NCBI GenBank assembly: GCA_026707585.1
Contig: JAPOWQ010000073.1
Location: forward strand, 1 to 32,879
Direction of reading: 5' to 3'
DNA: 32,879 nt
Source: Chloroflexota bacterium
Lineage (GTDB): Bacteria > Chloroflexota > UBA11872
The notes beneath the pieces were generated by a model. It ran no database searches, was not told the DNA's origin, and worked only from the letters and a program-made list of their open reading frames with translations. A program made the translations under genes and the position numbers. This document shows positions 10,879-32,144 of the stretch, in pieces (the stretch's first letter is position 1; every line of letters starts with the position of its first letter).

Positions 10879-11013
10879 ATGTCTGAACCCGCAGCTGCAA
10901 TCATAGGTGAATTCTCAAGCGTAGAAGGCGAGCCAGGCTACGTATTCCGATACCAGAGCAACACGATCCGAGTCGTTGCGGCAGACGAGATCAGAGCGCC
11001 CCAGCACTATTGA
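10879..11013 (+). CDS. possible small protein, 44 residues
   Basis: ATG at 10879 with TAGGT four bases upstream. The product begins MSEPAAAIIGEFSSVEG and continues with a strand-rich part (YVFRYQSNTIRVV). It overlaps the 3' end of the opposite-strand TIR gene by 23 bp. No family recognised. It could be a real small gene, or the beginning of a longer gene truncated by the junction with the TIR gene. Confidence 0.35.
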   Translation: MSEPAAAIIGEFSSVEGEPGYVFRYQSNTIRVVAADEIRAPQHY

Positions 11014-11854: not shown

Positions 11855-11860
11855 GATTAA

Positions 11861-11866
11861 GTTATA
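11861..11866 (-). promoter_or_regulatory. candidate -10 element of the TIR gene (leaderless)
   Basis: TATAAC ends six bases before the chosen ATG, with no ribosome binding site in between. That spacing would start the transcript at or next to the start codon, giving a leaderless mRNA. A convincing -35 box is not visible 17 bp upstream, so this is tentative. Confidence 0.35.
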
Positions 11867-12420
11867 CACTCGAAGTCCCATTCTGAGTATTGTGCGATGC
11901 TCACAGAGTGGATCGGTGGTTCTTCCATCGGCGAGTCCTCGATGAATGCAGGGAGGCACTAGTCGCAGGAACGTTGCCAGCGGGAAGTGTAGCGCGCTCT
12001 AGAACGGGACTTCGTGGTGGCGGCGTCCGGGGAATCTGGCTATTGCGATGCACTGACGGCAGGGCCGGAGCCCAGGCAAACGTGGGTGCCATAGGACGTT
12101 AGGCCGAAAACGTGTCGCATCCCGACCCGTGTCCGTCGCTGCACCATGACGGTCGTTCCTATACACGGAGCGGACTTGCAGCCCATTCTAGACCTAGTTC
12201 GTCGCTCCATCTCGCACCTTCTGTGCGCAATCTCGGCGTCAACAGCCTTGAGCAACGTGGAGCCGCCAGCGCCGTGACCGGTGGCTGCGGCTCATCCTGG
12301 TGAATGCCGTGATGCCGGCGGTCGACTCGCCAGCCCCCTACTAATACGAACGTGGCCGGTCCGAGTTCCGTAAATCCTCGTAGCTGCCTGCTATTACCCC
12401 ATGAAGGGACCGAACGCGCC
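11867..12420. other. spacer without a recognised gene
   Basis: About 550 bp between the TIR gene and the ABC permease, both of which are on the minus strand. Frames here are short, conflict with each other and carry no motif. Confidence 0.4.
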
Positions 12421-13185
12421 CTACGTCTCCCGCCAGGGCAGGCGCCACAGTCCAAGTCCCATGGTGACAGCCGTGTAGGCCGCCAGGACGGCAAGCTCCA
12501 GCCAGACGTCCACACGTCCCCCCAGCGAGGCGGCGATGGCGTCGGCCGCGTAGCGCAGGGGCGAGACGTAGCCGAACCACTGCAGAAGGAGAGGCGCCGA
12601 CTCCAGGGTGAAGTACACGGGCGAGATGATGACCAGCACGATGGCGATGAGGCTGGCGAGGATGTTTCCCACCGGCAGCGACGGCGCGAAGCTCATCACG
12701 AACAGCACGATGCCCGCCAGCGCCAGAACGGTCAGCAGCAGTGCAGGGGCCAGGGCCCAGGTTGGTGCGATTTCGACGCCGGCGATAAATGCGAAGCCCA
12801 GCAGAAACAGGGCGGACAGTGTTCCCGACACCGCGGTGTACAACAGCGTTCCCACAACATAGGCGGCCTTGGAGACCGGCATGGTGATGACGAGCTTCAG
12901 GTGGCCCATGAATCGCTGCGCGACGATCTGCTGCCCGACCAGCATGGCGGTGCTGAAGGCCACGCCGAAGATCAGCGTTCCAGCCAGCAGGCGTTGCCAG
13001 ACGGCCGCGTCGTCGGGGGCGATGGAGCGAAAGACGTAGAACATGGGAATCGGAAAAATCAAGGTTCCCAGCACGATGAAATACCACTGGCGAATCATGG
13101 GAAGCCCGTGGATCTCCAGCACGGCTAGCGAATCGCTCACGAATTTCCGCGGGCCGGGCGTGCGGAGGCCGTCAGTTCGAGTCAT
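12421..13185 (-). CDS. ABC-2 type transporter, permease subunit
   Basis: 254 residues from the ATG at 13185; a start at 13209 is also open. There are about six hydrophobic segments (WYFIVLGTLIFPIPMFYVF; the TLIFGVAFSTAML region; the LSALFLLGFAFIAG region; a long pair around ALLLTVLALAGIVLFVMSF; NILASLIAIVLVII; and a final LAVLAAYTAVTMGLGL). The motif SPLRYAADAI after the VYFTLES loop is typical of DrrB/ABC-2 permeases. The start overlaps the end of the ATPase gene by 14 bp, so the two are translationally coupled. Together they form a homodimer-type exporter; the substrate is unknown, but the nearby ligase and methyltransferase genes make a small product of that cluster a candidate. Confidence 0.9.
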   Translation of the reverse strand: MTRTDGLRTPGPRKFVSDSLAVLEIHGLPMIRQWYFIVLGTLIFPIPMFYVFRSIAPDDAAVWQRLLAGTLIFGVAFSTAMLVGQQIVAQRFMGHLKLVITMPVSKAAYVVGTLLYTAVSGTLSALFLLGFAFIAGVEIAPTWALAPALLLTVLALAGIVLFVMSFAPSLPVGNILASLIAIVLVIISPVYFTLESAPLLLQWFGYVSPLRYAADAIAASLGGRVDVWLELAVLAAYTAVTMGLGLWRLPWRET

Positions 13186-14065
13186 CGGTCTCGCTCTCAT
13201 CTCTGTCACCCTGGGTCATCGCCAGGTACACGTCCTCCAGGCTCGTCCGCATCACCGCGTACTCGTCGACACCCTGAGCTCGCAGTTGCCCGGCCAGGGC
13301 CAGATGGTCGTCGCCGTAGACGGTCTGTTGGCCCTCGGACGACTCGTAAACCAGCTTGTATTCGTGCCCGATGGAGGACCGCAGGTTCGCGATGGTGTCC
13401 AGGGAGATCAGGCGACCGTCCTGAATGATGCCAATGCGGTCGCAGAGCGTCTCGGCCTCTTCCATGTAATGGGTGGTCAGGAGCACGGCGCCGTCGCGCC
13501 GGCGGTAGCTCTGCAGGACCTCCCAGAGCCGCTGGCGGGACTCCACGTCCAGGCCGACCGTGGGTTCGTCCAGGATCAACACGTCAGGTTCCGCCAGCAT
13601 GGCGATGCCGACCAAGAGCCGGCGACGCAGTCCGCCTGACAGGCGTTCGCTGGAGAAGTCGCGGTGAGCCGTCAGGTCGAGTTCCTCGATTAGCTCGTCG
13701 GCCCGCGTCCGTGCATCCCGTCGCGAGAGCCCGCGCAGCACACCGAAGATGCGCAGGTGCTGGTACACCGACAGCCCGTCGAACAGCCGCGCCTCTTGCG
13801 GCACGACCCCGATCCGTGACTTGGCGGCGTCGGGATTCGAAACCGCGTCGATGCCGACCACTCGTACGTCGCCTGAGGTCGGCACAAGTTCGGTGGTTAT
13901 CTGTCGGACGAGGGTCGTCTTACCGGCGCCGTTTGGACCCAGAACGCCCAGCGCCTCGCCCCAGTTGAGGGTCAGCGAGATGTCCTGGTTGGCGTGCGGG
14001 CCGTCCTTGTAGCGCTTGTTGAGGTTGCGGACCTGGATGGGCGGAGGTCGCTTCGACATGCTCAT
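13172..14065 (-). CDS. ABC-2 type transporter, ATP-binding subunit (DrrA-like)
   Basis: 297 residues from the ATG at 14065 (alternative ATG at 14059). It has a full set of ABC motifs: Walker A GPNGAGKTT, Q-loop VVPQEARLF, signature LSGGLRRRL, Walker B VLILDEPT, D-loop VGLD and the switch His in LLTTHYMEEAE. The C-terminal ~80 residues follow the DrrA pattern and end with SLEDVYLAMTQG. It powers the permease encoded immediately downstream. Multidrug or natural-product efflux is the common role of this subclass; the substrate here is unknown. A GC-rich coding style separates it from the AT-richer ligase and methyltransferase genes further upstream on the same strand. Confidence 0.95.
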   Translation of the reverse strand: MSMSKRPPPIQVRNLNKRYKDGPHANQDISLTLNWGEALGVLGPNGAGKTTLVRQITTELVPTSGDVRVVGIDAVSNPDAAKSRIGVVPQEARLFDGLSVYQHLRIFGVLRGLSRRDARTRADELIEELDLTAHRDFSSERLSGGLRRRLLVGIAMLAEPDVLILDEPTVGLDVESRQRLWEVLQSYRRRDGAVLLTTHYMEEAETLCDRIGIIQDGRLISLDTIANLRSSIGHEYKLVYESSEGQQTVYGDDHLALAGQLRAQGVDEYAVMRTSLEDVYLAMTQGDRDESETDDSN

Positions 14066-14954
14066 GGAGTCTGCTCGCACAGTGGCTCAGCGAGATCTTC
14101 CCGCCAAGTATGCCTGAAACTGTCGTCCTCTGAAGCCGACGCGGGGAGTTTGCATTTCGGCGTCCAAGTGCGGTGCTTGAAGAAGTCCGGCGATGCTGCG
14201 GGAGGACTTGCGCCGCGTCGGTAGCCTGCCATACAGCGGCAGACGATACGAGCGACGGTAATCTAGGCAAAGTTGCAGGATTCAGGACGGCTATGCGTTG
14301 TCTGGCTCAGGACAAGAGTCTGCGCTGCGAACCTCTACTAGTCGGTGACGTTAGTGGACCGTTGAATTCACCCGAAGGGCCAGTCTTGGGGGCACAGGCC
14401 TTTCGAAGCTGTCTGGATTGACACTGCCCGGCCGTCTGAAGGGGAGTTGTGTCCAGTGGATTTGCTCTGGCCAAGTACTGGCCTATTACTCGGTCGCGTG
14501 TCGCAAGTCAAGACGGGACGTCTGAACAGCCCTTGCGCACAAGGACCACCTCGATACTGCGCTGACCCAAGCCGGTGGGGCTCCCGCGGTGTCGGGGAAA
14601 GTTGGGTCTGCTGCCGTTGAGCGACTTGCGGGTTCACAGATCTTGAACCGAGACGCCATGAAGACGTAGCTTGCGCTGTTCCCTGTGGATTGATATCGAA
14701 CCTCCACCGTCTCACCCATTGCAATCGAAGTGCCCCTTCGGTTGCACGAGTCCTTTGTCTCACCAACGTGGTAGGCCATCGCCATTGGGGCCAAGCATGC
14801 CAAGGATTTCACCTCACTGAGCAGAGACTGAAATATCCTGGTTGGAATTGGCCCCGGAACCATACTGCTTCGCGGGGCTGTGAGCCTGAATAGGGTCTGG
14901 ATGCGCACGGTCCATATCCTGACTAGACACTTGTCTGCGCTCCCCCTCGTCATT
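14066..14954. other. long spacer, one doubtful frame
   Basis: About 890 bp between the ABC ATPase and the hairpin at 14955. A minus-strand frame (14486-14953) contains a moderately protein-like part around MGETVEVRYQSTGNSAS, which faintly recalls DUF3592-type proteins, but its ends look random and it has no ribosome binding site. I do not call it a gene. The spacer makes it unlikely that the ABC genes share a transcript with the genes at 15012 and beyond. Confidence 0.35.
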
Positions 14955-14990
14955 AGCCTCGGGCTCCGGCTCTCGCCGGAGCCCGAGGCT
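14955..14990 (-). terminator. perfect 15-bp hairpin downstream of the gene at 15012-15794
   Basis: The arms AGCCTCGGGCTCCGG and its exact complement are separated by a six-base loop. It lies 21 bp after the stop codon of the minus-strand gene. There is no T-run on either side, so it is not a classical intrinsic terminator; it may stop transcription weakly or protect the mRNA 3' end. Confidence 0.55.
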
Positions 14991-15011
14991 GAGTGCCTGT
15001 CGATTCTGAAC

Positions 15012-15794
15012 TTACCGGGGATGCTTTGCCAGAACGCCCGCCTTCATCGCTACAAAGTTCCTGTCCGCAAACGCGATGCTCTCATCAATATCGCTCGTTG
15101 CGATGAACGATGCGGGTGTGTACTGAGCCGTTGCCCGGTAGTCAAAGAACCGCAATCCAGACTTCCGCGTGAGAACGGCACTCAACATCTTGTAAGACCA
15201 TACCTCATCAAAGGGCAATTCTCGGTCACCCTCGTAGAGGTACGCCCGCCGAACCGCTGAATGAAAACGCTCGCCACCCTCATTGATGATGGTCTGCCCA
15301 TAGACACTTTCGATCCTGCCTTGGGCAGCCTGTCGTAGGTATTGTGCATACCCAGGTGACCACTCTACCTCCGCAGGACCTTCGAACCATCCTTCTATTC
15401 GGGAGTGGCCCTGTAATCTCCCAGGGCTGACCTCTTCCAAGTGCCCGATTTGCTGGAATCGTCCAATCTCTGTACCGTCGGGGCGAACCATGCTGTAATC
15501 CACTTCGACGTCAAATGGAAAACCCATCACGCTGGTGAGATTGACCGCCCCGTCCTTCGCATGCAAATACACACACTTGTTCCATGACACCCACGACCCG
15601 AAGCTTGCCCGGAGAACAACACTTCCCAAGGCAGGATCGTCATCAAACTTGATGACTCCCCCGTGCACGTTCGTGTCGGCATCGTAGAATCCCTCGTAGT
15701 CACCCTGGATCTCCCGGTCATTCAGCCGAGCGCTGAGATCCAACTCCGTATACTGCGAAGCCGCAGGTTCCGAAACCCTCACTACAGTGGCCAT
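15012..15794 (-). CDS. uncharacterised protein, 260 residues
   Basis: Start ATG at 15794 with a strong AAGGAGG ribosome binding site. The protein is soluble, without a signal peptide or membrane segments, and rich in predicted strands with many aromatic and acidic residues (DYEGFYDADTNVHGG, GSWVSWNKCVYLHAKDG, EGWFEGPAEVEWSPGY). I do not recognise the family; the pattern would suit a beta-barrel or lipocalin-like enzyme. It is the third of four minus-strand genes that may work together (methyltransferase, ligase, 16035 gene, this gene), but 240 bp separate it from the gene upstream. A perfect hairpin follows its stop codon. Role unknown; a tailoring or binding protein of the cluster is only a guess. 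Confidence 0.8.
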   Translation of the reverse strand: MATVVRVSEPAASQYTELDLSARLNDREIQGDYEGFYDADTNVHGGVIKFDDDPALGSVVLRASFGSWVSWNKCVYLHAKDGAVNLTSVMGFPFDVEVDYSMVRPDGTEIGRFQQIGHLEEVSPGRLQGHSRIEGWFEGPAEVEWSPGYAQYLRQAAQGRIESVYGQTIINEGGERFHSAVRRAYLYEGDRELPFDEVWSYKMLSAVLTRKSGLRFFDYRATAQYTPASFIATSDIDESIAFADRNFVAMKAGVLAKHPR

Positions 15795-16580: not shown

Positions 16581-18176
16581 CTATCTGAACTGATTCCGAA
16601 GAACTTCGCGAAGTCTTCGCTTCAGTATTTTACCTTGCCTGTTTTCTGGCAAAGAATCAACCACAAAAATCATTCTCGGAACCCTGGATGGATGCCGCGC
16701 TCGCTCACGAGCGAATCGCTTAAGCTCAGAGACTTTGACTCTCCGCCGATCGTGGGCTACGACGGCCACGGCAACTTCCTCACCCAGCACAGGATCGGGT
16801 ACAGAAAATGCTGCTACTCTCTTGACCTCGCTATGCTCGTAAAAAATATCCTCCACCTCCGTGGATGATATGGCCTGCAAACCGCGGACTATGTTGTCAT
16901 CACGACGATCCAGAAGTGTGACTTGACCTTCAGAATTTTGATATCCAAAATCGCCAGTGACCACCCACTCGTCTGGCAGATATACCTTTGCCTGTCTAGT
17001 TTTATCCTGGAAATACTCACGCCCCGGCATTCCACGACAACGCATCCAAATATCACCCGCCTCGCCCTCTGGAGCTTCCTTACCATCGGACTTAACAATT
17101 CGAACTTCAGGAACAGCAAAAACGCCACCGTCTTTATCTACACAAGGCACTCCCTGTCCCACCAGCCCAAGCGGCGGCAGGTTATTCACATCAATCACAT
17201 GACAAAATTTCGGCGGTCCCAACTCACTGATGCCATAGGTGTTAACCAACTTAGTACTAGGAAACGTTTTCTGGAGCCTCGGCCAAAGGCTTGTCGGACA
17301 GTGAGAGTCACCGACCTCCAAAAGCTGCAAGGACGACATATCATCGGCTTGATGACCTAGTCTCGAACTCAACAGCGCAATTCCCTGTGGAGGCGTTATG
17401 GCAGAGTGCGTTACATTGTGTCTTGATACCATATGGCAAAACGACTCCGGATTGAAGCGATGCATTACGACGACCGTCTGGAAATTGGCGTTGGGTAAAA
17501 TGCGTCTGAATGGATGCACCACATCACCCAATCTGGGTGCAAATGCTCCGGAACAGTGCAGGAGTACAGGCATGTCGAAAGTATTACTTGTAAATTCGTC
17601 AAGAAGTGAAATGCTGTATCTTGACTTGAAAGTGATATTATCGTGAGATGCTGCAATGGCACGTGCACGACCCGTTGTACCTGAAGTTGGGGCAATCTCA
17701 GCAATCTCGTTAGGTCTGATGCCTGCCCTAGTCACGCCTCGCGATGTCGAAACTATTAGGCTGCATGGATCAGCTATCCACTGCCCCGTATAGGCAACGC
17801 CAGGTAATTCGGAGTGTACGTCTTCAGGAGCTATGATACTAAAATTCTTTAATTTAGAAAAGTCAACTGATATTTCGCCACCTGTTGTACCGCCTCTGTC
17901 GACAAAGTCAGGATGAGGCAGAAGGACTACTATTCCGCCTAATCTGTGCACAGCAAAATATGCTGCAGCACAGTCAATCCAGCGCGACCCACTAAAAACT
18001 ATCCCAATATAGTCGCCTGACTGTACACCCTTGTCTGCTAGCCCTACAGCCATTTTGTTTGAAAGCGCATTAAGATACGCAAAGGTTGCATGGTCCCCAG
18101 ACTCTTGATAGACCGCCACTGCATCTCCGTGGCTTCTTGCTGCGCTCTCAATAAGCTCAGGTGTCGTCCTTGTCAT
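16581..18176 (-). CDS. adenylate-forming enzyme (AMP-dependent ligase/synthetase superfamily)
   Basis: 531 residues from the ATG at 18176, chosen because AAGAGGTG lies at correct spacing; the frame extends 20 codons upstream into the previous gene. ANL-superfamily core motifs are present: A3 TSGTTG (164-169), A5 YGISE (314-318), A7 TGDFGY (407 on), the hinge DRRDD, A8 GLQAISSTEVED, and A10 ENRQGKILKRRLR with catalytic Lys516. It activates a carboxylate as acyl-AMP, to load a CoA, carrier protein or amine. One oddity is that A3 continues RARA where PK is usual. No carrier domain is fused or encoded nearby. It starts 22 bp after the methyltransferase stop, so the two are an operon. The substrate cannot be told. 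Composition is AT-rich for this window. Confidence 0.92.
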   Translation of the reverse strand: MTRTTPELIESAARSHGDAVAVYQESGDHATFAYLNALSNKMAVGLADKGVQSGDYIGIVFSGSRWIDCAAAYFAVHRLGGIVVLLPHPDFVDRGGTTGGEISVDFSKLKNFSIIAPEDVHSELPGVAYTGQWIADPCSLIVSTSRGVTRAGIRPNEIAEIAPTSGTTGRARAIAASHDNITFKSRYSISLLDEFTSNTFDMPVLLHCSGAFAPRLGDVVHPFRRILPNANFQTVVVMHRFNPESFCHMVSRHNVTHSAITPPQGIALLSSRLGHQADDMSSLQLLEVGDSHCPTSLWPRLQKTFPSTKLVNTYGISELGPPKFCHVIDVNNLPPLGLVGQGVPCVDKDGGVFAVPEVRIVKSDGKEAPEGEAGDIWMRCRGMPGREYFQDKTRQAKVYLPDEWVVTGDFGYQNSEGQVTLLDRRDDNIVRGLQAISSTEVEDIFYEHSEVKRVAAFSVPDPVLGEEVAVAVVAHDRRRVKVSELKRFARERARHPSRVPRMIFVVDSLPENRQGKILKRRLREVLRNQFR

Positions 18177-18198
18177 ATCAGCACCTCTTCCCAACGCC

Positions 18199-19362
18199 TC
18201 ATTTGGTAAGGCTGATGACCTCACAATGAAAGGCACGGTCTATCACCCATCTCCCGTCTCGAAGCACTTCTCTGCCAATTTGCTCATCGTGGCCGCGGAA
18301 TTCTATCTCATAGTCAGATTTGCATGGAGATCCGATATTTAACCAATCTGACTTCATGTCTTCTATAGAGCGTATACCATCGCTATTTCCAAATACTTCT
18401 TCTGAGGGTAAGTTAATGTATGCGCATCCCATAGTGCCGCGATCTAGTCCCGGCACAAAGGTGGGTATGTTATCACCATTCGATACTCGAAGTAACCGGA
18501 AATCAGGAACGGTCACGGCTAGGTAGAAAAGAAAGTCATAGATTGATGCCGTCGATTCATTAGTGAACAATCTCGTCTTGTTCAGTCCTAGTCCGCAAGA
18601 ATCTATTGAATGTTCTGTCTGCGAACCAAGGTGGTTCTTTGAACCAACACTATCTATTGATCGTCCTGCATCTCCAACTACGCGAGCGAGCACAGTGTGC
18701 CCCTTCATAAACACTCTGAGAATTGGATAGTGAAACCCATGCCGCATGGGAACCAAAATCGTCCCGCCTTGCCGCAAAGCAACAAGCCATTCTGGGTGCA
18801 CATCTTCACATCCGACGGTAACCAAGATTCGGTCAAATGGCCGAGCTGACACAAGCCCGTCAACGATCGTCCTAACTTCAGCTGAACTAAAGCCAGCTTT
18901 CGCCAAGGACCTTTGCGTGGGCCATCGCTGTGCAGAGTCTACACATACACCACAGACGTTGCGCGCCGTTCCTACCATTTCCGATAACAGAGCAAGGACA
19001 TATCCTGTTCTACTTCCAATCTCACATGCCCGCATTCCTCGTTCTACTTCCAGGGCCTCAAGCATCGTAATCAGCAATGGCTCTGGCAAGAGATGTCTGT
19101 TAGGGGGATTTCCTTGCCCGTATGAGAACGCCACAGGTCGTTCGTGTAGCATGTTGGCCAAGATTTGTAGCCTGTTGATGGACGGCCTGAACGGCTTGTC
19201 ACTTGACGCTACATCATCCAAGTCCTTGATATAAATGTTCTCCACGAAATCCTGAATGTCCACTGCAAATAGCGCTTGACGAATGAGCGGAGTGATAATG
19301 AGACCTTGCATATCCAACAACTCTATATGCTGCTTCCAAATCGAGTTCGCCGTTGAACTCAT
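18199..19362 (-). CDS. PCMT-like (protein L-isoaspartate O-methyltransferase-type) methyltransferase
   Basis: 387 residues. The central Rossmann fold has the PCMT arrangement: a region LPEPLLITMLEALEV before the SAM loop, motif I ACEIGSRTGYVLALL (112-126, canonical LEIGTGSGY), then FDRILVTVGCEDVHPEWL and RQGGTILVPM (about 176-206). About 180 residues follow the catalytic core, as in PCMT-like enzymes of peptide natural-product clusters rather than the ~210-residue repair enzyme. The substrate may therefore be a carboxylate on a peptide or small molecule rather than damaged protein; this is inference. It is the first gene of the operon with the AMP ligase. The ribosome binding site at the ATG is poor (TAGG close to the start); Met18 is an alternative. 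Confidence 0.85.
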   Translation of the reverse strand: MSSTANSIWKQHIELLDMQGLIITPLIRQALFAVDIQDFVENIYIKDLDDVASSDKPFRPSINRLQILANMLHERPVAFSYGQGNPPNRHLLPEPLLITMLEALEVERGMRACEIGSRTGYVLALLSEMVGTARNVCGVCVDSAQRWPTQRSLAKAGFSSAEVRTIVDGLVSARPFDRILVTVGCEDVHPEWLVALRQGGTILVPMRHGFHYPILRVFMKGHTVLARVVGDAGRSIDSVGSKNHLGSQTEHSIDSCGLGLNKTRLFTNESTASIYDFLFYLAVTVPDFRLLRVSNGDNIPTFVPGLDRGTMGCAYINLPSEEVFGNSDGIRSIEDMKSDWLNIGSPCKSDYEIEFRGHDEQIGREVLRDGRWVIDRAFHCEVISLTK

Positions 19363-20255: not shown

Positions 20256-20648
20256 TCAGGCCACGGTAGGGTCCCGCGCAATCTGCTTGTGGCAGAGGGC
20301 GTTGCAGATCATCAGCAGCGTGCGCATGCAGGCGACGAGGGCCACCTTGGGCGTCCAGCCGATCGGTCTTGGCCAGGGTGCTGTGGGCGCGGGCCAAGTC
20401 GCGGGTCCGGCGCGGATTGACCACGACCACCGGCAACCCCTCAAGGCCGCCACCACGGCCCGTTCGTACCCGCCCGTGGCTTCCAACACGATGCGGGTCG
20501 GTTGCAGGGCCTGGAGCCGGGCCCGCAGCCGATGCAGCCCGCTGCGGGTGCGCCGCATTGTCCAGAGAGAGCCTGTACGGTGCACCGCAACGTCCACGAG
20601 TCGCTGCGCTAAATCGATCCCGACGTTCACCTCCCCTGACGGAGTCAT
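20256..20648 (-). pseudogene. IS110-family transposase, internally deleted and frameshifted
   Basis: From the ATG at 20648 the N-terminal DEDD domain is clear: VNVGIDLAQRLVDVAV (first Asp), RIVLEATGGYERAVVAAL (Glu), then in another frame LPVVVVNPRRTRDLARAH and LAKTDRLDA (the Asp pair). Directly after this the sequence returns to the first frame with VALVACMRTLLMICNAL, which is the very C-terminal helix of IS110 transposases. The C-terminal catalytic-serine domain between these is missing, about 200 residues. At least two frame changes are needed. The element is dead; no element ends were identified. Confidence 0.88.
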
Positions 20649-21088
20649 TGGGTACCCGCCACCGACGCTGGCGAGACGCTCCACCGTGCACTCGCGGGTT
20701 AATCCTAGCGGCTCCGGCAGCTGTTCGGGCTCTGCGGCAGTGTCTGGGCCGAGACCATCCTGGTCTCGCACGGACTCAAAGGAATCACGAAGCGATCGGT
20801 CTGTCCCGGCCGTTCACTGCGACTTTGGCCAATCCAAGACTCCGGGTAACGTATAGGAAGCCGTAGGCGCTGGCATGTATGAACGGATCTGTCCAGGGGC
20901 GCCCGGTAACCGGCGTCTCTACCGGGAACTCCTCAACACTGTTGACAGGGGGGATCGGCAAACTCAGACTCCGTTGCCCTCCAGATAGGCGTTGTCACGT
21001 ACCCGGCGAGAAGCGCCAGCATCCGGCGCAGTGCCGGACTCACCAAAAAGCGAATGTTTGCACGGACACACATTCTCACGCCGAGACA
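20649..21088. other. spacer between the IS110 relic and the GT32-like gene
   Basis: Nothing recognised. An ATG at 20879 is in frame with the glycosyltransferase gene, but the intervening codons are Arg/Gly/Thr-rich and unlike protein. Confidence 0.4.
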
Positions 21089-21946
21089 GTGAGCTCACTT
21101 CATATACCGCTACGCCTCAGCGCCGCGAGCATTGCCGAAGACGATAGCCTGAGGTCGCAGGTCATGCGGCAACTGCTTACGATGTCCCCTAGCATCCCCC
21201 ACGTATCCGGCCGTTCGACTACACCTCGGGTACTCCTCCAGTTCTGGGATGACGCCTCAGCCATCCCAGACGATGTACAGGAGTGCCTAGAGAGCTGGGC
21301 ACCACTTGAGGCGGCGGGATTCGAACGCACGCTGTTGGACGATAGGTCAGCGCGGCTCTTCATCGAGGATCACTTCAGCGCACGAAACGTCCGGGCCTTC
21401 GACCGCTGCAGTCATCCCGCGATGCGTGCCGACTACCTCCGGCTGTGCTTCATGTTGCGAGTCGGCGGACTGTACGTCGACGCCGACGACGAGTATCAAG
21501 GTGCAGATGTCGAGCCATTGATCGACAGCGGCCAGCTCTGGCTCCAGCCACTCTGCTACGACATCGCGTCTGACTCGATGGTCGACGTGGCGAGTGCGCT
21601 CGCGGACACGGCCGGAGAAGCGCGAATTTTCTACGTCAACAACAACCCGCTCATCGCCGGACCAGGGCACCCAGTGATAGCCGGAGCTCTGGAGCGCTCA
21701 ACAGCTCTCCTGCTTGCGGCCTGCAGGGCGAATCGTGACCTCCAGTCGCTGACTGGGCCGGGCAACCTTACGGCCAGCCTCGTGAGTCATGCCGTTCAAC
21801 AAGCTGGGGGCGGCAAGACGCGGGACTTCGAGTTCCTACCAGAGTGGGACGCAGTAGCCGTCAGCAAGTGGCCGCTCGCCTACCGAGCCGACGAGCGCAA
21901 TTGGAGGAATTGGGTTCAGGGTGACCGAGAAGTGGACCACGCCTGA
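21089..21946 (+). CDS. GT32-like (DXD sugar-binding) glycosyltransferase
   Basis: About 285 residues if started at the GTG at 21089; ATG 21164 and ATG 20879 are in the same frame and the true start is uncertain. The family core begins at PRVLLQFWDD. The defining region is HPAMRADYLRLCFMLRVGGLYVDADDE, where DAD is the metal/nucleotide-sugar DXD motif and the preceding helix matches OCH1-type (Gly_transf_sug) enzymes. A later FYVNNNPLIAGPGHP segment supports the same fold. It should transfer a sugar from a nucleotide donor to a glycan or protein in the cytoplasm. The next gene, in the same direction, is also a glycosyltransferase, suggesting joint work on a surface or secreted glycan. Confidence 0.8.
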   Translation: MSSLHIPLRLSAASIAEDDSLRSQVMRQLLTMSPSIPHVSGRSTTPRVLLQFWDDASAIPDDVQECLESWAPLEAAGFERTLLDDRSARLFIEDHFSARNVRAFDRCSHPAMRADYLRLCFMLRVGGLYVDADDEYQGADVEPLIDSGQLWLQPLCYDIASDSMVDVASALADTAGEARIFYVNNNPLIAGPGHPVIAGALERSTALLLAACRANRDLQSLTGPGNLTASLVSHAVQQAGGGKTRDFEFLPEWDAVAVSKWPLAYRADERNWRNWVQGDREVDHA

Positions 21947-22035
21947 ACAAGGTCCCGTTCGCAGACTTCCGACAGAGCCTTCGGCATCACGGGCGGTTTC
22001 GCCTCAGATGGTTCGACTGGCGCCGACGCGCAGCC

Positions 22036-24114
22036 GTGTTCTCGCGGAGCATCGAGTCCGGTGCGTTGCGTCGCATATACGTGATCAACCTCGACCGGCG
22101 TCCGGACCGCTGGCAGCGTGTCCGTCGAGAACTCGACCGCTTTCGAGACCGGCATGGGGAACGCCTGTCGGCGCTTGCCCGAAGGTTCTCTGCTGTTGAC
22201 GCACGGTATCTGAAGGCGGCGCCCGACCTTGCGATGCTCGTCCCCCGATTCACGTTGGCTGACCAGCTCACGGTTGACCCGAGCCCGCTGCTTCGGATCG
22301 ATGACGAAGCGCGCGCGCGGGAGATCAGGATGACCAAGCAGGAAGTTGCCGTGGCGCTTTCCCACATCGAGGTATGGAAGCTGATTGCCCACGGCGACGT
22401 GCCCTGCGCGCTCGTACTTGAAGACGACGTGTTCATGACCTACGGCTTCGCCCGCGATCTTGAGACAACGTGGTCGTCGCTTACGCCGCCGGGTGCCGAC
22501 GAGCCGGACTTCGACCTCCTGTACCTGGCCTTTAACGACGTCGGCAGTGCCTCGCCCACCCGAGACGGGGACCGCGCTCGAAGGCTGCAGCAGCCGGGAA
22601 TCTGGGAAGCGTCCGCCTACATTCTCAGTCGCGATGGCGCTCGAAAGCTGCTTGACGCAGCGCCCGTCTATGGCCCGATCGACCTCTGGCTCAACATGCA
22701 GTTCGGTCGGTTGCGCGCATTTGCCGCGGCGCGCCCGCTCATCGAGCAACGCATCGATGAGCCGTCGACTAATTCGTACTCGGTCCTGCCCGTGCTCTCC
22801 CAAGTGGGAGTCATCACGCGCGAGAAGCCGCTCCTGCCGAGGACGAAGCGACTGCACGGGCCGGTCGTCGCCGTGGGCGACCAAGGCTCTGGACTAACGG
22901 CTCTTGCCGTTGCCCTCTCCATGCTCGGCTATAGCTGCTGTAGCGACTTGGACCGATTACCAGCACCGGAGCAATCGCGTCTTCTCCGGGGCGAGCAAGG
23001 CCGACTGTTCAGTGCGTATGTGAACATTGGCTCGCTCTCGTTCGAGGCACTCGAGCAGATCGCCAAGGCGTCTCGCAGAGCGCGGTTCATTACCACGTCC
23101 GCCGACCCGGTCGTGCCTCCCACCCTTCACGACCGCGTCCTTCGGCTTTCGCCTGAGGTGAAGGATAAGTGGGCGGCCCTCACTGAATTCCTCGACCTCG
23201 AGTATCCGGCCTTTCCCTATCCGACCGACCGCGACCTTGGCCAGCGCGCCCTAAGCCATTGGGCGCCACGGAAGAGCGCCGGGAACTTGACCGATCTGAA
23301 GTCCGACCGTGGACCGTGGATCCTGAGGTCAGCCCGCGACTGGAGCGGCATTGCCGTCGACACCGATCCCAGTCCGCGCACGTCCCTCGTGCGCGTTGAC
23401 TGGGCCGCCGGCGACACGCTCGACGACGCAGCCTGGCGACGCCGCGACGACACGTTCCCAAGCAACATGGCACTGTTCAGGCCTGCGAACGTCCGCCAGC
23501 TCCGCGACCACGCCTTGCTGACCCTCCGTCATGAGCAGACGTCGGTGCGTGCGCTCACGTCGGGAGCGATCGCGAGCACCGCGTCCTATCGCTATGGCAG
23601 ATTCAAGGCTGAGATCCGCCCGTCGGGTATACCGGGCCTTATCACCGGTATGTTCCTGCACCGAAACGGGCCGCGCCAAGAGATCGACATCGAATTCATC
23701 GGCAAGGATCCCAGCAAGATGCTCGTCAACGTCTTCTACAACCCGGGGCCAGAGGGCACGAAGCTTGAGTACGGATACCGCGGCACGCCGACACTGGTCG
23801 ATTTAGGTTTTGATGCCACCGCCGACTTTCATACTTACGAGATCGATTGGCTACCGAACACGATCCGATGGCTCATCGACGGCGAGGTCGTCTACGAACG
23901 CATGACCTGGGATCCGACGCCGGTCCCCAACCGACGTCTTCAGTTCAACCTCAACCTCTGGCACTCGCGATCAAGGGAGTTTGCCGGCACTCTGGCTTCA
24001 GCTGACCTTCCGGCATCTGCGAGCATCCGGTCGATCGAGATCCTCGGTAACGCCCGGTCGGCGTCAGACGAACAGGTTGACTTACTCGCTGCGACCCTGG
24101 CGGGACACTCGTAG
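22036..24114 (+). CDS. three-part protein: GT25 glycosyltransferase + sulfotransferase-like + GH16 glycoside hydrolase
   Basis: 692 residues from GTG 22036. Residues 1-270 are GT25-like (LOS/LPS type): IYVINLDRRPDRW, VALSHIEVWKLI, ALVLEDDVF (126-134), SAYILSRDGARKLL, and a GPIDLWLN end. Residues 275-405 resemble a sulfotransferase with a degenerate phosphate loop, VGDQGSGLTALAVALSMLGY, and a tail DKWAALTEFLDLEYPAFPYP. Residues 475-675 are GH16: YGRFKAEIRPSGIPG, the catalytic EIDIE (549-553), YEIDWLPNTIRWLIDG, and FNLNLWHS. There is no signal peptide, which is unusual for GH16. The stop-free frame upstream back to 21925 looks coding (FADFRQSLRHHG, WFDWRRR), so the real N-terminus may lie up to 30 codons earlier, overlapping the end of the previous gene, although no standard start codon is visible there. 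Confidence 0.88.
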   Translation: MFSRSIESGALRRIYVINLDRRPDRWQRVRRELDRFRDRHGERLSALARRFSAVDARYLKAAPDLAMLVPRFTLADQLTVDPSPLLRIDDEARAREIRMTKQEVAVALSHIEVWKLIAHGDVPCALVLEDDVFMTYGFARDLETTWSSLTPPGADEPDFDLLYLAFNDVGSASPTRDGDRARRLQQPGIWEASAYILSRDGARKLLDAAPVYGPIDLWLNMQFGRLRAFAAARPLIEQRIDEPSTNSYSVLPVLSQVGVITREKPLLPRTKRLHGPVVAVGDQGSGLTALAVALSMLGYSCCSDLDRLPAPEQSRLLRGEQGRLFSAYVNIGSLSFEALEQIAKASRRARFITTSADPVVPPTLHDRVLRLSPEVKDKWAALTEFLDLEYPAFPYPTDRDLGQRALSHWAPRKSAGNLTDLKSDRGPWILRSARDWSGIAVDTDPSPRTSLVRVDWAAGDTLDDAAWRRRDDTFPSNMALFRPANVRQLRDHALLTLRHEQTSVRALTSGAIASTASYRYGRFKAEIRPSGIPGLITGMFLHRNGPRQEIDIEFIGKDPSKMLVNVFYNPGPEGTKLEYGYRGTPTLVDLGFDATADFHTYEIDWLPNTIRWLIDGEVVYERMTWDPTPVPNRRLQFNLNLWHSRSREFAGTLASADLPASASIRSIEILGNARSASDEQVDLLAATLAGHS

Positions 24115-24247
24115 TCGGCTGGCGACAGCTCCGTGGCCGCATCCCGCCTCTCGCCACGAGTAGCCGCTGCACCGCCATCGGCGAACACCCGATGGCCACC
24201 GCCACCCAGCTCCGTTGGCCGCTCACTCCCGATGATGCGTCGATCGA

Positions 24248-24556
24248 CTAAGACCCGCCGCCCAAGGGGCGGACGCCTTGTGAGCTAGGACTCCGCCCAT
24301 GATCGAGAACCGCGATCGCCGAGCCGATCAGAGTTAGCAGCTTGTGTCCCGCGTTCGCGCGGCCCGCCGCCTCACCGAGGTCGAGGTGGGCGTTCGCAAG
24401 TTCACGAAGTCCGAGCCGGAAGTCGAGCGTGGCGGGGAGCAGCAGGCCTTCGTGGGCCACGTGACGGTCGTCGTCGAAGGCGCTCCAGAGCCGGTCGGGG
24501 CTGCGTGGTACTAGTGCCAAATCGGCGCTACTTGCGTCTTGAATGTGAATCGTCAA
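24248..24556 (-). pseudogene. IS1380-type transposase, N-terminal fragment
   Basis: The frame reads RLWSAFDDDRHVAHEGLLLP, then RLGLRELANAHLDLG and AGHKLLTLIGSAIAVLDHG, which corresponds to the start of IS1380-family transposases (FDD...vsdaGL.l.atLa.rLGL..lv...vdLg...GrKvltLv.a..aGgD). Only about 85 residues remain and the catalytic DDE part is missing. A small inverted repeat (CCGCCC/GGGCGG, 24258-24272) lies at the break. It is a dead fragment between the GH16 fusion gene and the carbamoyltransferase relic. Confidence 0.7.
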
Positions 24557-24621
24557 AACCCAAGGTCCCAGGTACAGGGGAGCACCCCTTGTCAGCTACT
24601 CACGCGCTCCCCTTCGGTGGA

Positions 24622-24873
24622 TCAGGGCTTCGCTTGGAGGGAAGTCATGAGCAGATGCCTGCGATCGGTCGGCGATGCGGTGTTGGCCTGCGCAATGACA
24701 ATGTCGGAGTACTGTTCAAGGTCCCCGTCGAGGTCTTGTCTGGCTACCGGCGGATTTGGCCGCCCATCGGACGGGTACGCATTCGTCGGCAAGAATTCTC
24801 GCCGAGCGTGGTGTGATAAGGGAACGACGTCCGGTGCCGGAGTGATCAGCGGTTTTTCCGGATCGTGACTCAT
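24622..24873 (-). CDS. possible small protein downstream of the carbamoyltransferase relic
   Basis: 83 codons from the ATG at 24873, with GGAGG twelve bases upstream (three bases before an alternative GTG at 24882). It begins 61 bp after the end of the carbamoyltransferase relic, in the same direction. The product is polar, Pro/Asp-rich and without membrane segments (DPEKPLITPAPDVVPLSHH, then DLDGDLEQYSDIVIAQ). Intact carbamoyltransferase operons often have small membrane proteins next to them; this is not one of those. No family recognised. Confidence 0.3.
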   Translation of the reverse strand: MSHDPEKPLITPAPDVVPLSHHARREFLPTNAYPSDGRPNPPVARQDLDGDLEQYSDIVIAQANTASPTDRRHLLMTSLQAKP

Positions 24874-24933
24874 CGAGCTCACTGACCTCCGTCCGACCGA
24901 TACGCCCTGTAGCGTTCGGAACTCCAGAGAAGA

Positions 24934-26472
24934 TTACGCCCGCCCCTCAACCACGAATCCGTCCAATTCACGATCCACGGTGGAAAGTGCCGAGGTCCGT
25001 CAGGTTGTTGATGAATCCCTGTCCGCTGAAGTTGAGGGAGCTGTTGCAGAGGACTCCGAGTCCGGTGCGCGCCTTGAAGGCAAGGAGATGGTCGTAGAGG
25101 TCGGCGTTCGTGCGTCGGCTTACTGTTTGAAGCCGGGCCGTGCCGTTCACGTGCGTTACTGCGGCCAGCGCGTCCGTGTTGGCCCTTAAGGTGAACAGCA
25201 TGAACGGGCTCTCGTGGTCGCAGCTGAACCAGCGCGCTGCATCGGCCTCCAGACAGACTGGCGCGATGGGTCGGAACTGCTCGCACTGTCTGATCTCGTT
25301 CAGGCGCACCCGTGTGCTGTCATCGAACGGCGCAGCGAGAATGGACCTATTTCCGGGAGCGCGAGGACCGATCTCGTACCTGCCGCTGACCCACCCCACG
25401 ATCAGGCCCCGACTCAAGATGTCAGCCACCTCCTCGTAGCTCGTGTCTCGAACGTCGTAGCGGCTAGGAACGACGGGTGCGTCCGTCCTGAACGGGAGAC
25501 CGGGATAGACGTCCCATTCGATCTTGGCCTCGCCGGTGAAGTGGACCTGAGCGTCGATCGCGGTGCCGATTGCTGAACCGGAATCGTTGGCAACGGGTGG
25601 CACAAAGACTTGAGAGAAAGTCCCAGTTTCTCTCCGCTTCGTGTTTCAGTCGCAGTTCAGGCCGCAACCTCCGGCGATGACCAACGCCAGACCGTTGCGC
25701 AAGTTCGTCTTCGCAGAACGGTGGAAGGCCTCGAAAATCCTGTCGCAAAAAAGCCAGCAAAGTTGCGAAATTCTGTGTCATCCGTGTCTACGATGTAATG
25801 CGCGGACGACTCATGTCGTTCGTAGCGGTCAAGTCGAATGTGTCGAGAGGCGACGAGGAAGTCCATCAATTCCGCCTCCTTGGCTCCGTCGAGAGAACGA
25901 GGCGAGCGCCACCAACTTGCCCGCATCCGAGAATCGGGAGAAGGAGGCGTTATTCGGGAATGTCGGACTGCCAATCCGTAGATCGAGGCATACCGGTTGC
26001 CGGGTTCGTTTATCACGTCGGCGATCCATGTGATGTTCATGTCTGGATCGATCTCATAGAAGGCGCCGCTTGCCCCCTCCCACACCAGCGCACAGCAAGA
26101 CGAGCCTTTAGGAAAGGACGACATGCCAAATCCGCAGAGCAGGTGCGACCTCTCGTGGGAGGAGGAGAAGAATGAAACCAGTTTTCCGATTAAGCTGCGA
26201 CGGTCCACGCTGATTTCGTCTCTAGCGGCGCCGCGACTTCCAACGTGAGAATGTAATCCGGTCGGGCGCGCCTCGCGTGGCTACCGGTCTCCAGTGCACT
26301 CTGCGTCGGGCACTTGGTCCTGTCGGCCGAAGGCGTCGACCAAGTCGTGACTGGAGCGCGGGGTGTAGCGGTAGTTGGAGTCCATCACTGCTTCGACGGA
26401 GGAAACGAGGTGGCCGTCGCAAAGGTGGGCGACGGCTCCGTCGTGACAGGGGTTGCACGACGGGATGTCCAC
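24934..26472 (-). pseudogene. NodU/CmcH-type O-carbamoyltransferase, nearly full length but broken
   Basis: From GTG 26472 the order of the intact enzyme can be followed through several frames. It runs CNPCHDGAVAHLCDGHLVSS and DSNYRYTP (start of the N-terminal domain); then after a frame change and probable deletion GKLVSFFSSSHERSHLLCGF (26208 on), GNRYASIYGL, in another frame SFSRFSDAGKLVALASFS, and back again DTDDTEFRNFAGFF. A frame change at about 25750 gives FEAFHRSAKTNLRNGLALVI, where TGA (25646-25648) replaces the conserved Trp after GLNCD. The C-terminal domain follows (GWVSGRYEIGPRAPGNRSIL, QFRPIAPVCLE, HVNGTARLQTV). One extra C near 24980 precedes the end VDRELDGFVVEGRA. Intact enzymes move carbamoyl from carbamoyl phosphate to sugar or antibiotic hydroxyls. 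At least five frameshifts and one stop make it dead. Confidence 0.9.
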
Positions 26473-26629
26473 GCTCGCGAGACTCTCCCCGTTCGGCGAG
26501 CCAGCTGTAGTGACCACACATCTGCGAGACACCTGACAATGGCGGAGCCTCCATCGAGACTTGGGGTCATCACACGCCAGGGTCCCCACGGTGGTTCACA
26601 TGGATGACGCTACGGGACGGCCGCAACGC

Positions 26630-28806: not shown

Positions 28807-29904
28807 CTAGGTGGCGATTTCGATCAGGTCGCCGCTTTCCGTACGCAGCACCAGGTGCCCGCCCTTGACGGCGTCGATGCGGGCGCTGGCGGCGCGGCGC
28901 CCCGTGCGCGCCGCCCGGCGGAAGGTGCGCCCGTTGGGCAGCCGGTCCAGGGGCGAGTGCGCCCGGTGGCGGCTCACCACATCGGACGAGGCGAGATGGA
29001 GGTAGTGGTTCACCATGGTCAGGGTCGTGTGGCCCAGGATGCGCTGCAGCGTCAGCACGTCGCCGCCGGCACGGAGGTAGGTCACGCCGAAGGTGTGGCG
29101 AAAGCGATGCGGGTGGATGTTCGCCACCTTGGCCCGCGCCGCCAGTCGCTTGAGCACGCGCCCCAGGGTGTAGCGCGTCAGCGGTCGCCGCTGGCGCGTC
29201 AGAAACACCCGGTCCGCGTCGGTGTGCGGGTCGTCCGGCCAGGGGCGCGCCAGCTGCAGGTAGCGATCCACCATGGACCGCGCGCGCTGGCCCAGCGCCA
29301 CGGTGCGGTCGCGGGCGCCCTTGCCGCCGCGCACCCGCACCTCGCCGGAGGCCAGATCCAGATCCGCCACCCGCAGACGGCAGAGCTCCGAGGACCGGAG
29401 CCCGTTATCGAGCAGCACGCTGAGGATGGCCAGGTCGCGGAGGCCCAGCGGCGCGCGCGGATCGCAGGCGTCCAGCAGGCGCTGCTGGTCGTCCGCGGCG
29501 ATGGGCTCGACCTCGCGCGTCGGCAGCCGCCCCGGGCGAAACTTTTCCAGGGGATGGGCGTCCACGTACGCCGCCTCGGCCAGCCAGCCGGCGAAGGCGC
29601 GCAGCACGCGGCAGTAGCCGTTGACCGTGTGGGCGGCTCGACGCTCGCCCTCGTGGCCCGGCGTGCGCCGCGGGCGCGCCATCGGGGCCGTGCGCCGGTG
29701 GCGCTGCCAGCGCCGGGCCAGCTCGAGCGTCAGGGCGCCGACGTGGCCGGCCGCCTCACCGTCGGCGTGCTCCGCGAAGCGGCGCAACACGGCGTGTTTC
29801 CAGCCCAGCGTGGCGCGCGACTGGCCCTCGGCCTCGCAGGCCGCCAGGTACTCCGCGATGGCCTCGGCCAGCGGCGCGCTGGTCCCAATCGGCATGTCAC
29901 CCAT
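28807..29904 (-). CDS. tyrosine recombinase / site-specific integrase
   Basis: 365 residues from the ATG at 29904, chosen for its GGAGG ribosome binding site seven bases upstream. The N-terminal SAM-like core-binding domain covers about 10-125. The catalytic domain is complete: Arg170 in GLRSSELCRL, Lys195 in GGKGARDR, His266 and Arg269 in HPHRFRHTF, His292 in LGHTTLTMV and the nucleophile Tyr301 in NHYLHL. About 60 residues follow the active-site Tyr, with a basic stretch and a short strand-rich end. It should integrate or excise a genomic island. A tRNA-like fragment lies about 220 bp upstream of its start, the expected place for its attachment site. It is intact, unlike the integrase at 27488. 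Confidence 0.95.
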   Translation of the reverse strand: MGDMPIGTSAPLAEAIAEYLAACEAEGQSRATLGWKHAVLRRFAEHADGEAAGHVGALTLELARRWQRHRRTAPMARPRRTPGHEGERRAAHTVNGYCRVLRAFAGWLAEAAYVDAHPLEKFRPGRLPTREVEPIAADDQQRLLDACDPRAPLGLRDLAILSVLLDNGLRSSELCRLRVADLDLASGEVRVRGGKGARDRTVALGQRARSMVDRYLQLARPWPDDPHTDADRVFLTRQRRPLTRYTLGRVLKRLAARAKVANIHPHRFRHTFGVTYLRAGGDVLTLQRILGHTTLTMVNHYLHLASSDVVSRHRAHSPLDRLPNGRTFRRAARTGRRAASARIDAVKGGHLVLRTESGDLIEIAT

Positions 29905-30121
29905 GATCCTGCCTCCGCTGTCGGCGGTGCCCTGCAAGCGTCCGCCGACCGTTGGCCGGACGTTGGGAAGTGCGGGGGAGCGTGTGGCAGGCGTTGGATG
30001 TCGCGGGCCAGGCTAGTGCCCCTGGTCCCGACCTTGGAAAAGCTAGTGACCCTTCGCCCGCCCCGCCGCGGGGGCGGGCGATGCCGCCCGCGCGCCGTCC
30101 CATCAGGTTTGACGGGGGTGG

Positions 30122-30576: not shown

Positions 30577-30618
30577 ATGTCGGTACTTATTGACATTTTC
30601 CGACATATCCGTGAGTAT
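30577..30618 (+). promoter_or_regulatory. abiE promoter with overlapping inverted repeats (candidate AbiEi operator)
   Basis: TTGACA (30590-30595) is a consensus -35; 17 bp later GAGTAT (30613-30618) is a weak -10. The predicted start of transcription falls at the ATG at 30625, so the mRNA is probably leaderless. A 7-bp perfect inverted repeat ATGTCGG (30577-30583) / CCGACAT (30600-30606) brackets the -35 box, and a second overlapping one, AAATGTC (30575) / GACATTT (30592), shares its bases. AbiEi antitoxins of known systems bind inverted repeats in their own promoter. Confidence 0.65.
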
Positions 30619-30624
30619 TGGCGT

Positions 30625-31227
30625 ATGCGATCCGAACGCCGAACCCAGGTTCTCGACCTAGTCCAGAGAGCCGGGCTGGCCCGTCCGCGCGACCTCGAGG
30701 CTCATGGGATACCTGGCCGATATCTCGGTCAACTCGCGCGCGAGGGACTGCTGGAAAAGGTGGGTCGAGGTCTTTACGCTCCTGCTGACGCCGCCGTAAG
30801 CGAACACCGCTTTCTGGCTGAAGTTGCGAAGCGCACACCTCACGGAGTGATCTGCCTGCTCTCCGCGCTGAGCTTCCACGGCCTGACGACGCAGTCTCCG
30901 TTTGAGGTTTGGCTGGCGATTGGTCCAAAGGACCGGGCACCGCGGCCAGCCGGCGTCGGACTGCGGGTCGTGCGCTTCTCGGGCAAGGCGCGAGACGCCG
31001 GGATTCAGACGGAGGTCATCGACGGGGTGTCGGTGCGCGTGTACGGGCCGGCAAAGACCGTGGCGGACTGCTTCAAGTTCCGGAGCAAAGTAGGAGTGGA
31101 TGTCGCCATCGAAGCCCTCCGGGACTGCGCGGCCCAGAAGCTCAGCTCCGCGGATGAGCTTGCCGCGTATGCGCGCATCTGTCGCGTGGCGCGGGTAATG
31201 CAGCCCTATATGGAAGCCGTCCTGTGA
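30625..31227 (+). CDS. abiEi: AbiEi-family antitoxin (type IV toxin-antitoxin)
   Basis: 200 residues from the ATG at 30625; an upstream in-frame ATG (30577) would run through the promoter and is rejected. The N-terminal winged helix-turn-helix covers about 1-65 (TQVLDLVQRAGLARPRDLEAHG, YLGQLAREGLLEKVGRGLYAP). The C-terminal domain follows with TPHGVICLLSALSFHGLTTQ, EVWLAIG, VRVYGPAKTVADCFKFRSKVG and DVAIEALRD, the family's most conserved parts. The protein represses its own operon and counteracts the toxin without binding it directly in studied members. It overlaps the toxin start by four bases (GTGA). Intact. Confidence 0.93.
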   Translation: MRSERRTQVLDLVQRAGLARPRDLEAHGIPGRYLGQLAREGLLEKVGRGLYAPADAAVSEHRFLAEVAKRTPHGVICLLSALSFHGLTTQSPFEVWLAIGPKDRAPRPAGVGLRVVRFSGKARDAGIQTEVIDGVSVRVYGPAKTVADCFKFRSKVGVDVAIEALRDCAAQKLSSADELAAYARICRVARVMQPYMEAVL

Positions 31228-32144
31228 CACGTCGGCGACCGCGGAACATTGCCGCGTCAGTCCGGCAACGCTTGTTGAACCTCGCGCGCGATGAGGGGGA
31301 GGACTTCAACCACGTCCTTATTCGCTACGCGAACGAGCGCCTGCTGTACCGGCTCGGTAAGTCTGGCTTTCGCGACCAGTTTGTGCTCAAGGGGGCGGTC
31401 CTCTTCGAGGTGTGGTCAGCGTCGCCTCACCGAGCAACTCGCGATGTGGATCTGCTCGGCTTTGGGGAGCCGGCAGAGGAGGCTGTGCAGTCCGTCATTC
31501 GGACTCTTTGCGCGATGGAGGTGCCCCCAGATGGCATACGTTTCCAGGTTGGCTCCGTGCGGACCGAGCCGATTCGTGATCGGCAGGCGGCCATTGGGAT
31601 CCGCGTTCGGCTCACAGCCGATCTCGACGGTGCACGAATCAGCCTTCAGGCAGATATCGGCTTTGACGATGTAGTGACGCCAGGCGTCGTACAAGCCGAC
31701 TTCCCGACGCTACTCGACTTCCCAGCCCCTCGGTTGCAGACGTATCCGCGCGAAACGGTCGTGGCGGAGAAGTTTGAGGCGCTGGTGCGACTAGGCATTG
31801 CCAACACTCGAATGAAGGATTTCTACGACCTCTGGTTCATGGCAACGACGTTTGCTTTTCGGGGCAATACGTTGGCTAGGGCGTTGGCGGCCACGTTTGA
31901 TTGTCGCGGGACGCCGCTGCCTCTCGAAGTCCCGGTGGGTCTGAGCCCGGAGTTCAGCGCGGACGCTGGAAAGCAGGCGCAGTGGCTGGCGTTTGGGAGA
32001 CGCTCGGGCCTGCAGACGTTGCCCACGCTGGATACTGTCGCGGCGATGCTCCGGCGTTTTCTTCTCTTGCCCGTTTCAGCTGCCCTGAAGGGCGACAAAA
32101 CCGAACGAGACTGGCCCGCTGGCGGCGATTGGAGCGACGCCTAA
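31224..32144 (+). CDS. abiEii: AbiEii-family nucleotidyltransferase toxin
   Basis: 306 residues from the GTG at 31224, translationally coupled to the antitoxin. It belongs to the DNA polymerase beta-like nucleotidyltransferases: FVLKGAVLFEVW (53-64) with the Lys-Gly motif, TRDVDLLGFG (72-81) with the metal-binding Asp-x-Asp, QADIGFDDVV, then VVAEKFEALVRLG (179 on) and NTRMKDFYDLW with the conserved Lys and Asp pair. Known AbiEii toxins are bacteriostatic and transfer nucleotides, halting growth on phage attack. All motifs are present, so the toxin should be active. Length is normal for the family (about 290-310). Confidence 0.95.
   Translation: MTRRRPRNIAASVRQRLLNLARDEGEDFNHVLIRYANERLLYRLGKSGFRDQFVLKGAVLFEVWSASPHRATRDVDLLGFGEPAEEAVQSVIRTLCAMEVPPDGIRFQVGSVRTEPIRDRQAAIGIRVRLTADLDGARISLQADIGFDDVVTPGVVQADFPTLLDFPAPRLQTYPRETVVAEKFEALVRLGIANTRMKDFYDLWFMATTFAFRGNTLARALAATFDCRGTPLPLEVPVGLSPEFSADAGKQAQWLAFGRRSGLQTLPTLDTVAAMLRRFLLLPVSAALKGDKTERDWPAGGDWSDA

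Follow-up and report, generated by a model that had tools for sequence, protein, structure and literature searches.

Cyclic beta-glucan synthase (Cgs), which is described as acting on beta-1,2-glucan, combines a GT84 domain, a GH189 domain for cyclisation and a GH94 domain for chain-length control in one polypeptide (PMC10834661). The fusion protein described here resembles Cgs in uniting, within a single polypeptide, a glycosyltransferase and domains of a kind that would cut and re-join its product. It differs from Cgs in the identity of these domains, which by Pfam are GT25, Sulfotransfer_4-like and GH16, with no GT84, GH189 or GH94 domain. Cgs is not known as cargo of defence islands.

Other described systems share individual parts with the fusion. 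ExoK and ExsH of the Sinorhizobium succinoglycan clusters are GH16 beta-glycanases tied to glycan synthesis, and exoK loci are among the sequence matches of the fusion GH16 part. Unlike the fusion, however, ExoK and ExsH are separate proteins that are not fused to a transferase, and the NCBIfam ExoK model matches the fusion GH16 part (E = 8.9e-15) with a score of 54.8 against an equivalog cut-off of 350. The Bacillus lichenase BglS is closest to the fusion GH16 part in its fold and its EIDIEF-GKD active site but is a stand-alone enzyme (NCBIfam score of 93.9 against a cut-off of 300), and lichenases are secreted. COLGALT1 and the GT25 enzymes of LPS synthesis (LgtB type) have a GT25 domain with a conserved EDD, as does the fusion, but have no GH16 partner, and their acceptors are collagen or LPS core. 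Prophage gtr-type seroconversion cassettes are mobile sets of glycosyltransferases that alter surface glycans and can exclude phages. The operon encoding the fusion differs from these cassettes in that it has no GtrA or GtrB membrane proteins and consists of soluble GT32 and GT25 enzymes, GH16 and a carbamoyltransferase, and in that it also occurs in hosts without LPS. The third gene belongs to the NodU/TobZ/GdmN O-carbamoyltransferase family, but its linkage here is to the operon and not to clusters for Nod factors or antibiotics.

Every domain family is known individually. The fusion and its operon match no defence system described in PADLOC or in the papers searched. Nucleases, depletion of NAD, membrane pores and nucleotide signals are the usual means of known intracellular defence systems. 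No description of the fusion or the operon was found in a literature search of openly available main texts, and glycosyltransferases go unmentioned in the main text of DefensePredictor. The locus lies in a window (the whole stretch of DNA that was analysed) of 32,879 nucleotides from a Chloroflexota bacterium and contains the following features:

20879..21946, + strand: first operon gene, a glycosyltransferase of GT32 type (Gly_transf_sug, Och1-like; Pfam, Och1 profile match)
21943..22035, + strand: probable true N-terminus of the fusion, a basic segment (31 codons from CTG 21943)
22036..24114, + strand: GT25 - pseudo-sulfotransferase - GH16 fusion gene (692-codon open frame)
22066..22800, + strand: GT25 domain, residues ~11-255 (Pfam, COLGALT1 match, alignment)
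22825..23373, + strand: degenerate, shortened sulfotransferase-like domain, residues ~264-446 (Sulfotransfer_4, SgdX2 8y9p, Cpz8 9kf2, loop table)
23398..24045, + strand: GH16 domain of lichenase type, residues ~455-670 (Pfam, PDB sequence matches, fold, alignment)
24147..24830, no strand: extra segment of ~685 bp between the fusion and the carbamoyltransferase, absent from the closest relative, L002 (blastn)
24882..26520, - strand: NodU/TobZ-type carbamoyltransferase, convergent and frameshifted (Pfam Carbam_trans_C, E = 5e-46)

Domains and N-terminus of the fusion protein

An earlier note on this DNA had proposed that GT25, sulfotransferase-like and GH16 parts lie in one frame. We found 692 codons with zero interruptions at 22036-24114, with Pfam and fold matches to the parts, and all of the motifs that the note quoted (ALVLEDDVF, VGDQGSGLTAL, YGRFKAEIRPSG and EIDIE) are present. 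The frame is open as claimed but its start probably lies 31 codons earlier. Alignment of the upstream frames from four relatives (L002-L005) revealed 31 extra N-terminal residues that are conserved in homologues and are homologous to window positions 21943-22035. Because of this conservation, the true start is probably CTG 21943, giving a protein of 723 amino acids. The codon at this position is CTG in the window and L002 and ATG or GTG in seven relatives, being GTG in L009 and ATG in most. CTG 21943 overlaps the stop codon of the GT32 gene as CTGA in the window, and in L005 and L008 there is a four-base overlap between the fusion ATG and the stop of the preceding glycosyltransferase gene.

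The 31-residue N-terminus is basic both in the window and in 11 relatives (net charge of +5 to +9) and is mostly amphipathic, with a weak amphipathic signal in some Actinomycetes rows (moment of 0.35-0.37 versus a background maximum of 0.59). This conserved basic segment suggests that the fusion is peripherally attached to the membrane. The protein has no signal peptide, as the earlier note stated, but the description as a cytosolic-looking chain leaves out this suggested membrane attachment.

The GT25 and GH16 assignments both rest on Pfam matches above curated cut-offs, and the null result that the note had considered was obtained for neither domain. PF01755 (GT25) matches residues 13-209 of the window protein (E = 3.4e-14, 53.6 bits versus a cut-off of 24) and 13 of 14 relatives at E <= 0.1 (best 6.8e-20). 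The EDD motif (E129, D130 and D131) is invariant in 15 aligned rows. This part of the fusion resembles the corresponding domain of procollagen galactosyltransferase 1 (COLGALT1; E = 4.4e-10) as well as giant-virus GT25 enzymes. PF00722 (GH16) matches residues 492-650 (E = 3.9e-26, 92 bits versus a cut-off of 22), and the RefSeq product name is 'family 16 glycosylhydrolase'. In an AlphaFold2 model of the fusion (mean pLDDT of 73.8), Foldseek identified the C-terminal part as a lichenase fold (3wvj, E = 6.5e-20, TM of 0.86 by target), so that this part has both a beta-jelly-roll fold match and a profile match.

It is quite improbable that the GH16 part is a non-hydrolytic glycan-binding module, making the protein a GT25 transferase with a lectin-like tail. 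Non-catalytic GH16-like binding domains exist, and loss of catalytic residues has already occurred in the adjoining middle domain. However, the catalytic residues E549, D551 and E553 (EIDxE) are invariant in all 15 rows, which span several phyla, and dN/dS is as low in the GH16 domain as in the GT25 domain. Values of 0.12-0.30 in every one of the three domains indicate purifying selection.

In the middle domain, Sulfotransfer_4 matches residues 371-398 of the window protein with an E value of only 0.065 (17.3 bits, below the cut-off of 22.8), whereas all 13 of 13 members of the family have a match there (best E = 1.5e-9). A model of this domain alone shows a fold of the P-loop type that weakly matches two sulfotransferases, Cpz8 and SgdX2. 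Its phosphate loop is GxxGSG or similar, where SgdX2 has GRTGT. The rows that keep the loop have no lysine or arginine at the position of the SgdX2 arginine, and the loop is lost altogether in L016 and L017. These data support a shortened, non-catalytic sulfotransferase fold, in agreement with the earlier suggestion that this domain is catalytically dead, and an active sulfotransferase was rejected given the missing phosphate-loop residues. Modification by sulfation appears unlikely because the arginine or lysine of the PAPS loop is missing from every row, and the NodU-type carbamoyltransferase is the likelier modifier.

Operon partners and distribution

The gene upstream of the fusion matches PF04488 (E = 3.8e-5, 24.7 bits versus a cut-off of 23) and the Och1 profile 9n3s (E = 4.8e-7), and its DxDD motif is invariant in 16 rows. 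Its true start probably lies downstream of 20879, because most relatives align only from about residue 53-92. The note had asked whether a GT32-like gene always precedes the fusion. When the same domain order was searched for in other genomes, a GT32 gene was found immediately upstream in 20 of 22 non-redundant loci, the exceptions being L008, where a remnant is present, and L009, where it is absent.

A NodU/TobZ-type carbamoyltransferase gene adjoins the operon in 10 of the 22 loci, in upstream, downstream, divergent or convergent positions. The copy in the window has at least two frameshifts, located within about 25744-25975 and near 24983 (tblastn with the L002 protein, three frames). The gene is intact in L002, and full-length copies are found in L002, L013, L016, L017, L037 and L058. 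The DNA similarity between the window and L002 covers the three operon genes only and ends at their borders, and in L002 the two blastn blocks (20885-24146 and 24831-26520) adjoin without a gap. Inspection by eye revealed no obvious insertion-sequence ends at the cassette borders. Judged from this arrangement, the operon is small and mobile, and the fusion is encoded by its second gene.

The GT25-sulfotransferase-GH16 order recurs at full length, with 36-89% identity, in Chloroflexota, Actinomycetota, Pseudomonadota and Campylobacterota, and about 20 independent records have the identical architecture. The closest relatives are from MAGs titled Chloroflexi and Dehalococcoidia (89% and 80% identical), followed by Actinomycetes (58-72%) and by complete plasmids of Rhizorhabdus, Citrobacter, Klebsiella, Aliarcobacter, Sphingobium and Rhizobium (36-44%). 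The note had also considered that the join between domains could be an assembly artefact. The same contig does hold broken genes (the carbamoyltransferase and a helicase), but the identical order in complete plasmids, E. coli chromosomes and many independent records, together with the stop-free open frame of 729 residues at the fusion gene, makes the chance that an assembly or gene-calling error joined three unrelated genes negligible, and we rejected it.

Judged from its occurrence, the operon is rare and patchy and moves horizontally. The fusion was found in one of 41 genomes of the window's class, two of 350 genomes of its phylum, three of 395 genomes in an Actinomycetes-class sample, one of 369 genomes in a sample centred on Thiogranum and four of 5,426 E. 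coli genomes. Its hosts include both monoderm and diderm bacteria. We also considered vertical inheritance, which was ruled out as the fusion is missing from the 40 other genomes of the class.

No matches were found among 50,697 phage records when the fusion was considered as a phage gene proper, and a single-protein scan of viral contigs returned nothing. An alignment scan of viral contigs identified four copies, complete or partial, and phage genes accompany three of these. These three phage-like contigs (L037-L039, with terminase, portal or integrase genes) carry all three operon genes as cargo; the L039 contig ends inside the fusion.

Defence islands, mobile elements and possible function

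The operon is recurrently located in defence islands and on mobile elements. We compared proteins of at least 200 amino acids against PADLOC at a threshold of E <= 1e-15. The 81 operon-near proteins from 11 genomes matched 142 PADLOC families, while 111 proteins taken from elsewhere in nine of these genomes matched eight and 118 proteins around tyrosine integrases in the same genome set matched 20; these counts are of models, many of them redundant, so the ratio of operon to control overstates the effect. Neighbouring genes include HmaB and HmaC (L003), Gabija GajA (L004 and L006), type I restriction genes (L006), Wadjet JetC and PDC-S46 (L008), and AbiE and a PDC-S65 SIR2 protein in the window. 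PDC-S06 adjoins the operon in L005 and L007 and is close by in L012, Shedu with TIR or Lit is found near the operon on Aliarcobacter plasmids, and the E. coli ICE that carries the GT32 and fusion genes (NZ_AP021893) has ABC-three-component and ArdC genes. Three of the 11 neighbourhoods tested (L009, L057 and L058) have no clear defence gene. PADLOC has zero models for the fusion, the GT32 gene or the carbamoyltransferase.

Guilt by association does not distinguish defence genes from mobile cargo of other kinds. The operon could be a conversion cassette that alters surface properties, biofilm formation or a secreted glycolipid or glycoside to ends that have nothing to do with phages, with defence islands acting as insertion hot spots. 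ICEs, plasmids and prophages do carry the operon beside varied cargo, and the carbamoyltransferase of the prophages falls in the PHROGs category 'moron, auxiliary metabolic gene and host takeover'. We consider this explanation unlikely, as defence genes are far fewer at integrase neighbourhoods of the same genomes and as sugar-nucleotide, flippase and secretion genes do not travel with the operon. Membership of an ordinary EPS or LPS cluster was also considered, and none was seen at the annotated loci.

The same defence-island evidence would fit an intracellular anti-phage system whose enzymes would act after infection on a component of the phage or the host (nucleic acid, protein or a small signal) by glycosylation, carbamoylation or trimming, with the surface uninvolved. 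The presence of the operon in monoderm and diderm hosts means that the acceptor need not be a surface polymer, and there are no export genes nearby. This reading is nevertheless rather unlikely, given that the conserved basic N-terminus suggests membrane attachment, that the operon encodes no sensor, nuclease, NTPase or toxin domain, and that lichenase-type GH16 enzymes act on beta-glycans.

The two or three genes probably form a cassette for glycan modification, uncharacterised so far, that serves in conflicts with phages. Our preferred reading, which we hold tentatively and at somewhat less than an even chance, is that the operon directs the synthesis of a single modified oligosaccharide on the inner side of the cell membrane and that its likely benefit is surface glycans that block phages. 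The basic N-terminus would hold the fusion at the inner face, where the GT32 and GT25 enzymes would add sugars to a lipid-linked or envelope acceptor common to many bacteria. The tethered GH16 domain would cut or re-join the beta-linked product and set its length or architecture, the dead sulfotransferase domain may serve as a spacer or binding module, and the carbamoyltransferase would cap the product. Changed surface glycans could block phage adsorption or DNA entry, giving superinfection exclusion when the operon is prophage-borne. Under this model a short glycan is assembled and trimmed on a shared acceptor, and phage exclusion would be the selected effect. The annotated loci show no genes for a flippase, a polymerase or nucleotide sugars beside the operon, so an envelope product would need host pathways.

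GT25 enzymes are inverting and form beta-linkages, and the substrates of GH16 enzymes are glucans and galactans with beta-linkages. The GT25 and GH16 ends of the chain are thus chemically matched, and we infer that the first could make a bond that the second would cut or transfer. The earlier proposal that the protein builds, modifies and trims one glycan appears to fit the invariant active sites. A single polypeptide with a transferase and an opposed endo-glycanase would be a natural model of product-length control. A stronger interpretation, which we regard as somewhat unlikely, is that the operon is an anti-phage system of a biochemically new class. As a mobile module for glycan assembly, it would protect bacteria with unrelated cell walls through a membrane-bound acceptor that they have in common: one chain would add and cut sugars, GT32 would prime or branch and the carbamoyltransferase would cap the product. 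If true, a carbohydrate-enzyme cassette found repeatedly in defence islands and prophages of at least four phyla would suggest that glycan chemistry is a portable defence strategy. The E. coli chromosomal relative, which is 85% identical to a plasmid copy, makes the defence idea easily testable.

Other genes in the window and on related contigs

The window contains several other genes of interest. A SIR2-domain protein (654-2417, - strand) matches the PADLOC candidate PDC-S65 (E = 1e-198), and a complete AbiEi/AbiEii pair (type IV toxin-antitoxin / abortive infection) is located at 30577-32144 (+ strand). A protein at 10991-11959 (- strand) has a C-terminal TIR domain (E = 2.8e-13) with weak ThsB-like PADLOC matches. 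The gene at 4693-6171 (+ strand) encodes a Schlafen AlbA_2 domain with a RecG-type C-terminal domain, a common architecture of conflict-associated regulators or nucleases, and an apparent UvrD-like helicase at 8142-9379 (+ strand) is split over two frames and probably broken (by eye). A PCMT-like methyltransferase gene adjoins an AMP-binding ligase gene at 16581-19362 (- strand) and is matched below cut-off by models of FxLD and ATP-grasp peptide-maturation methyltransferases; together with an ABC transporter pair at 12421-14080, these genes possibly form a peptide-modification cluster. The operon closely follows an IS110 transposase remnant (20256-20771, - strand), and a tyrosine recombinase gene (28807-29937, - strand) lies downstream of it.

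In L057, which is from the window's phylum, a gene for a 2,206-residue protein without a PADLOC match (8955-15572, - strand) is located directly downstream of the operon. An Actinomycetes MAG (G352 contig 91, L070) has a second, degenerate copy of the fusion at 12052-13179, ~12 kb from the intact one. Two viral contigs encode a stand-alone GT25 gene about 26% identical (L040 7830-8717 and L041 4315-5202), which adjoins GroEL/GroES-like and small heat-shock-like genes.
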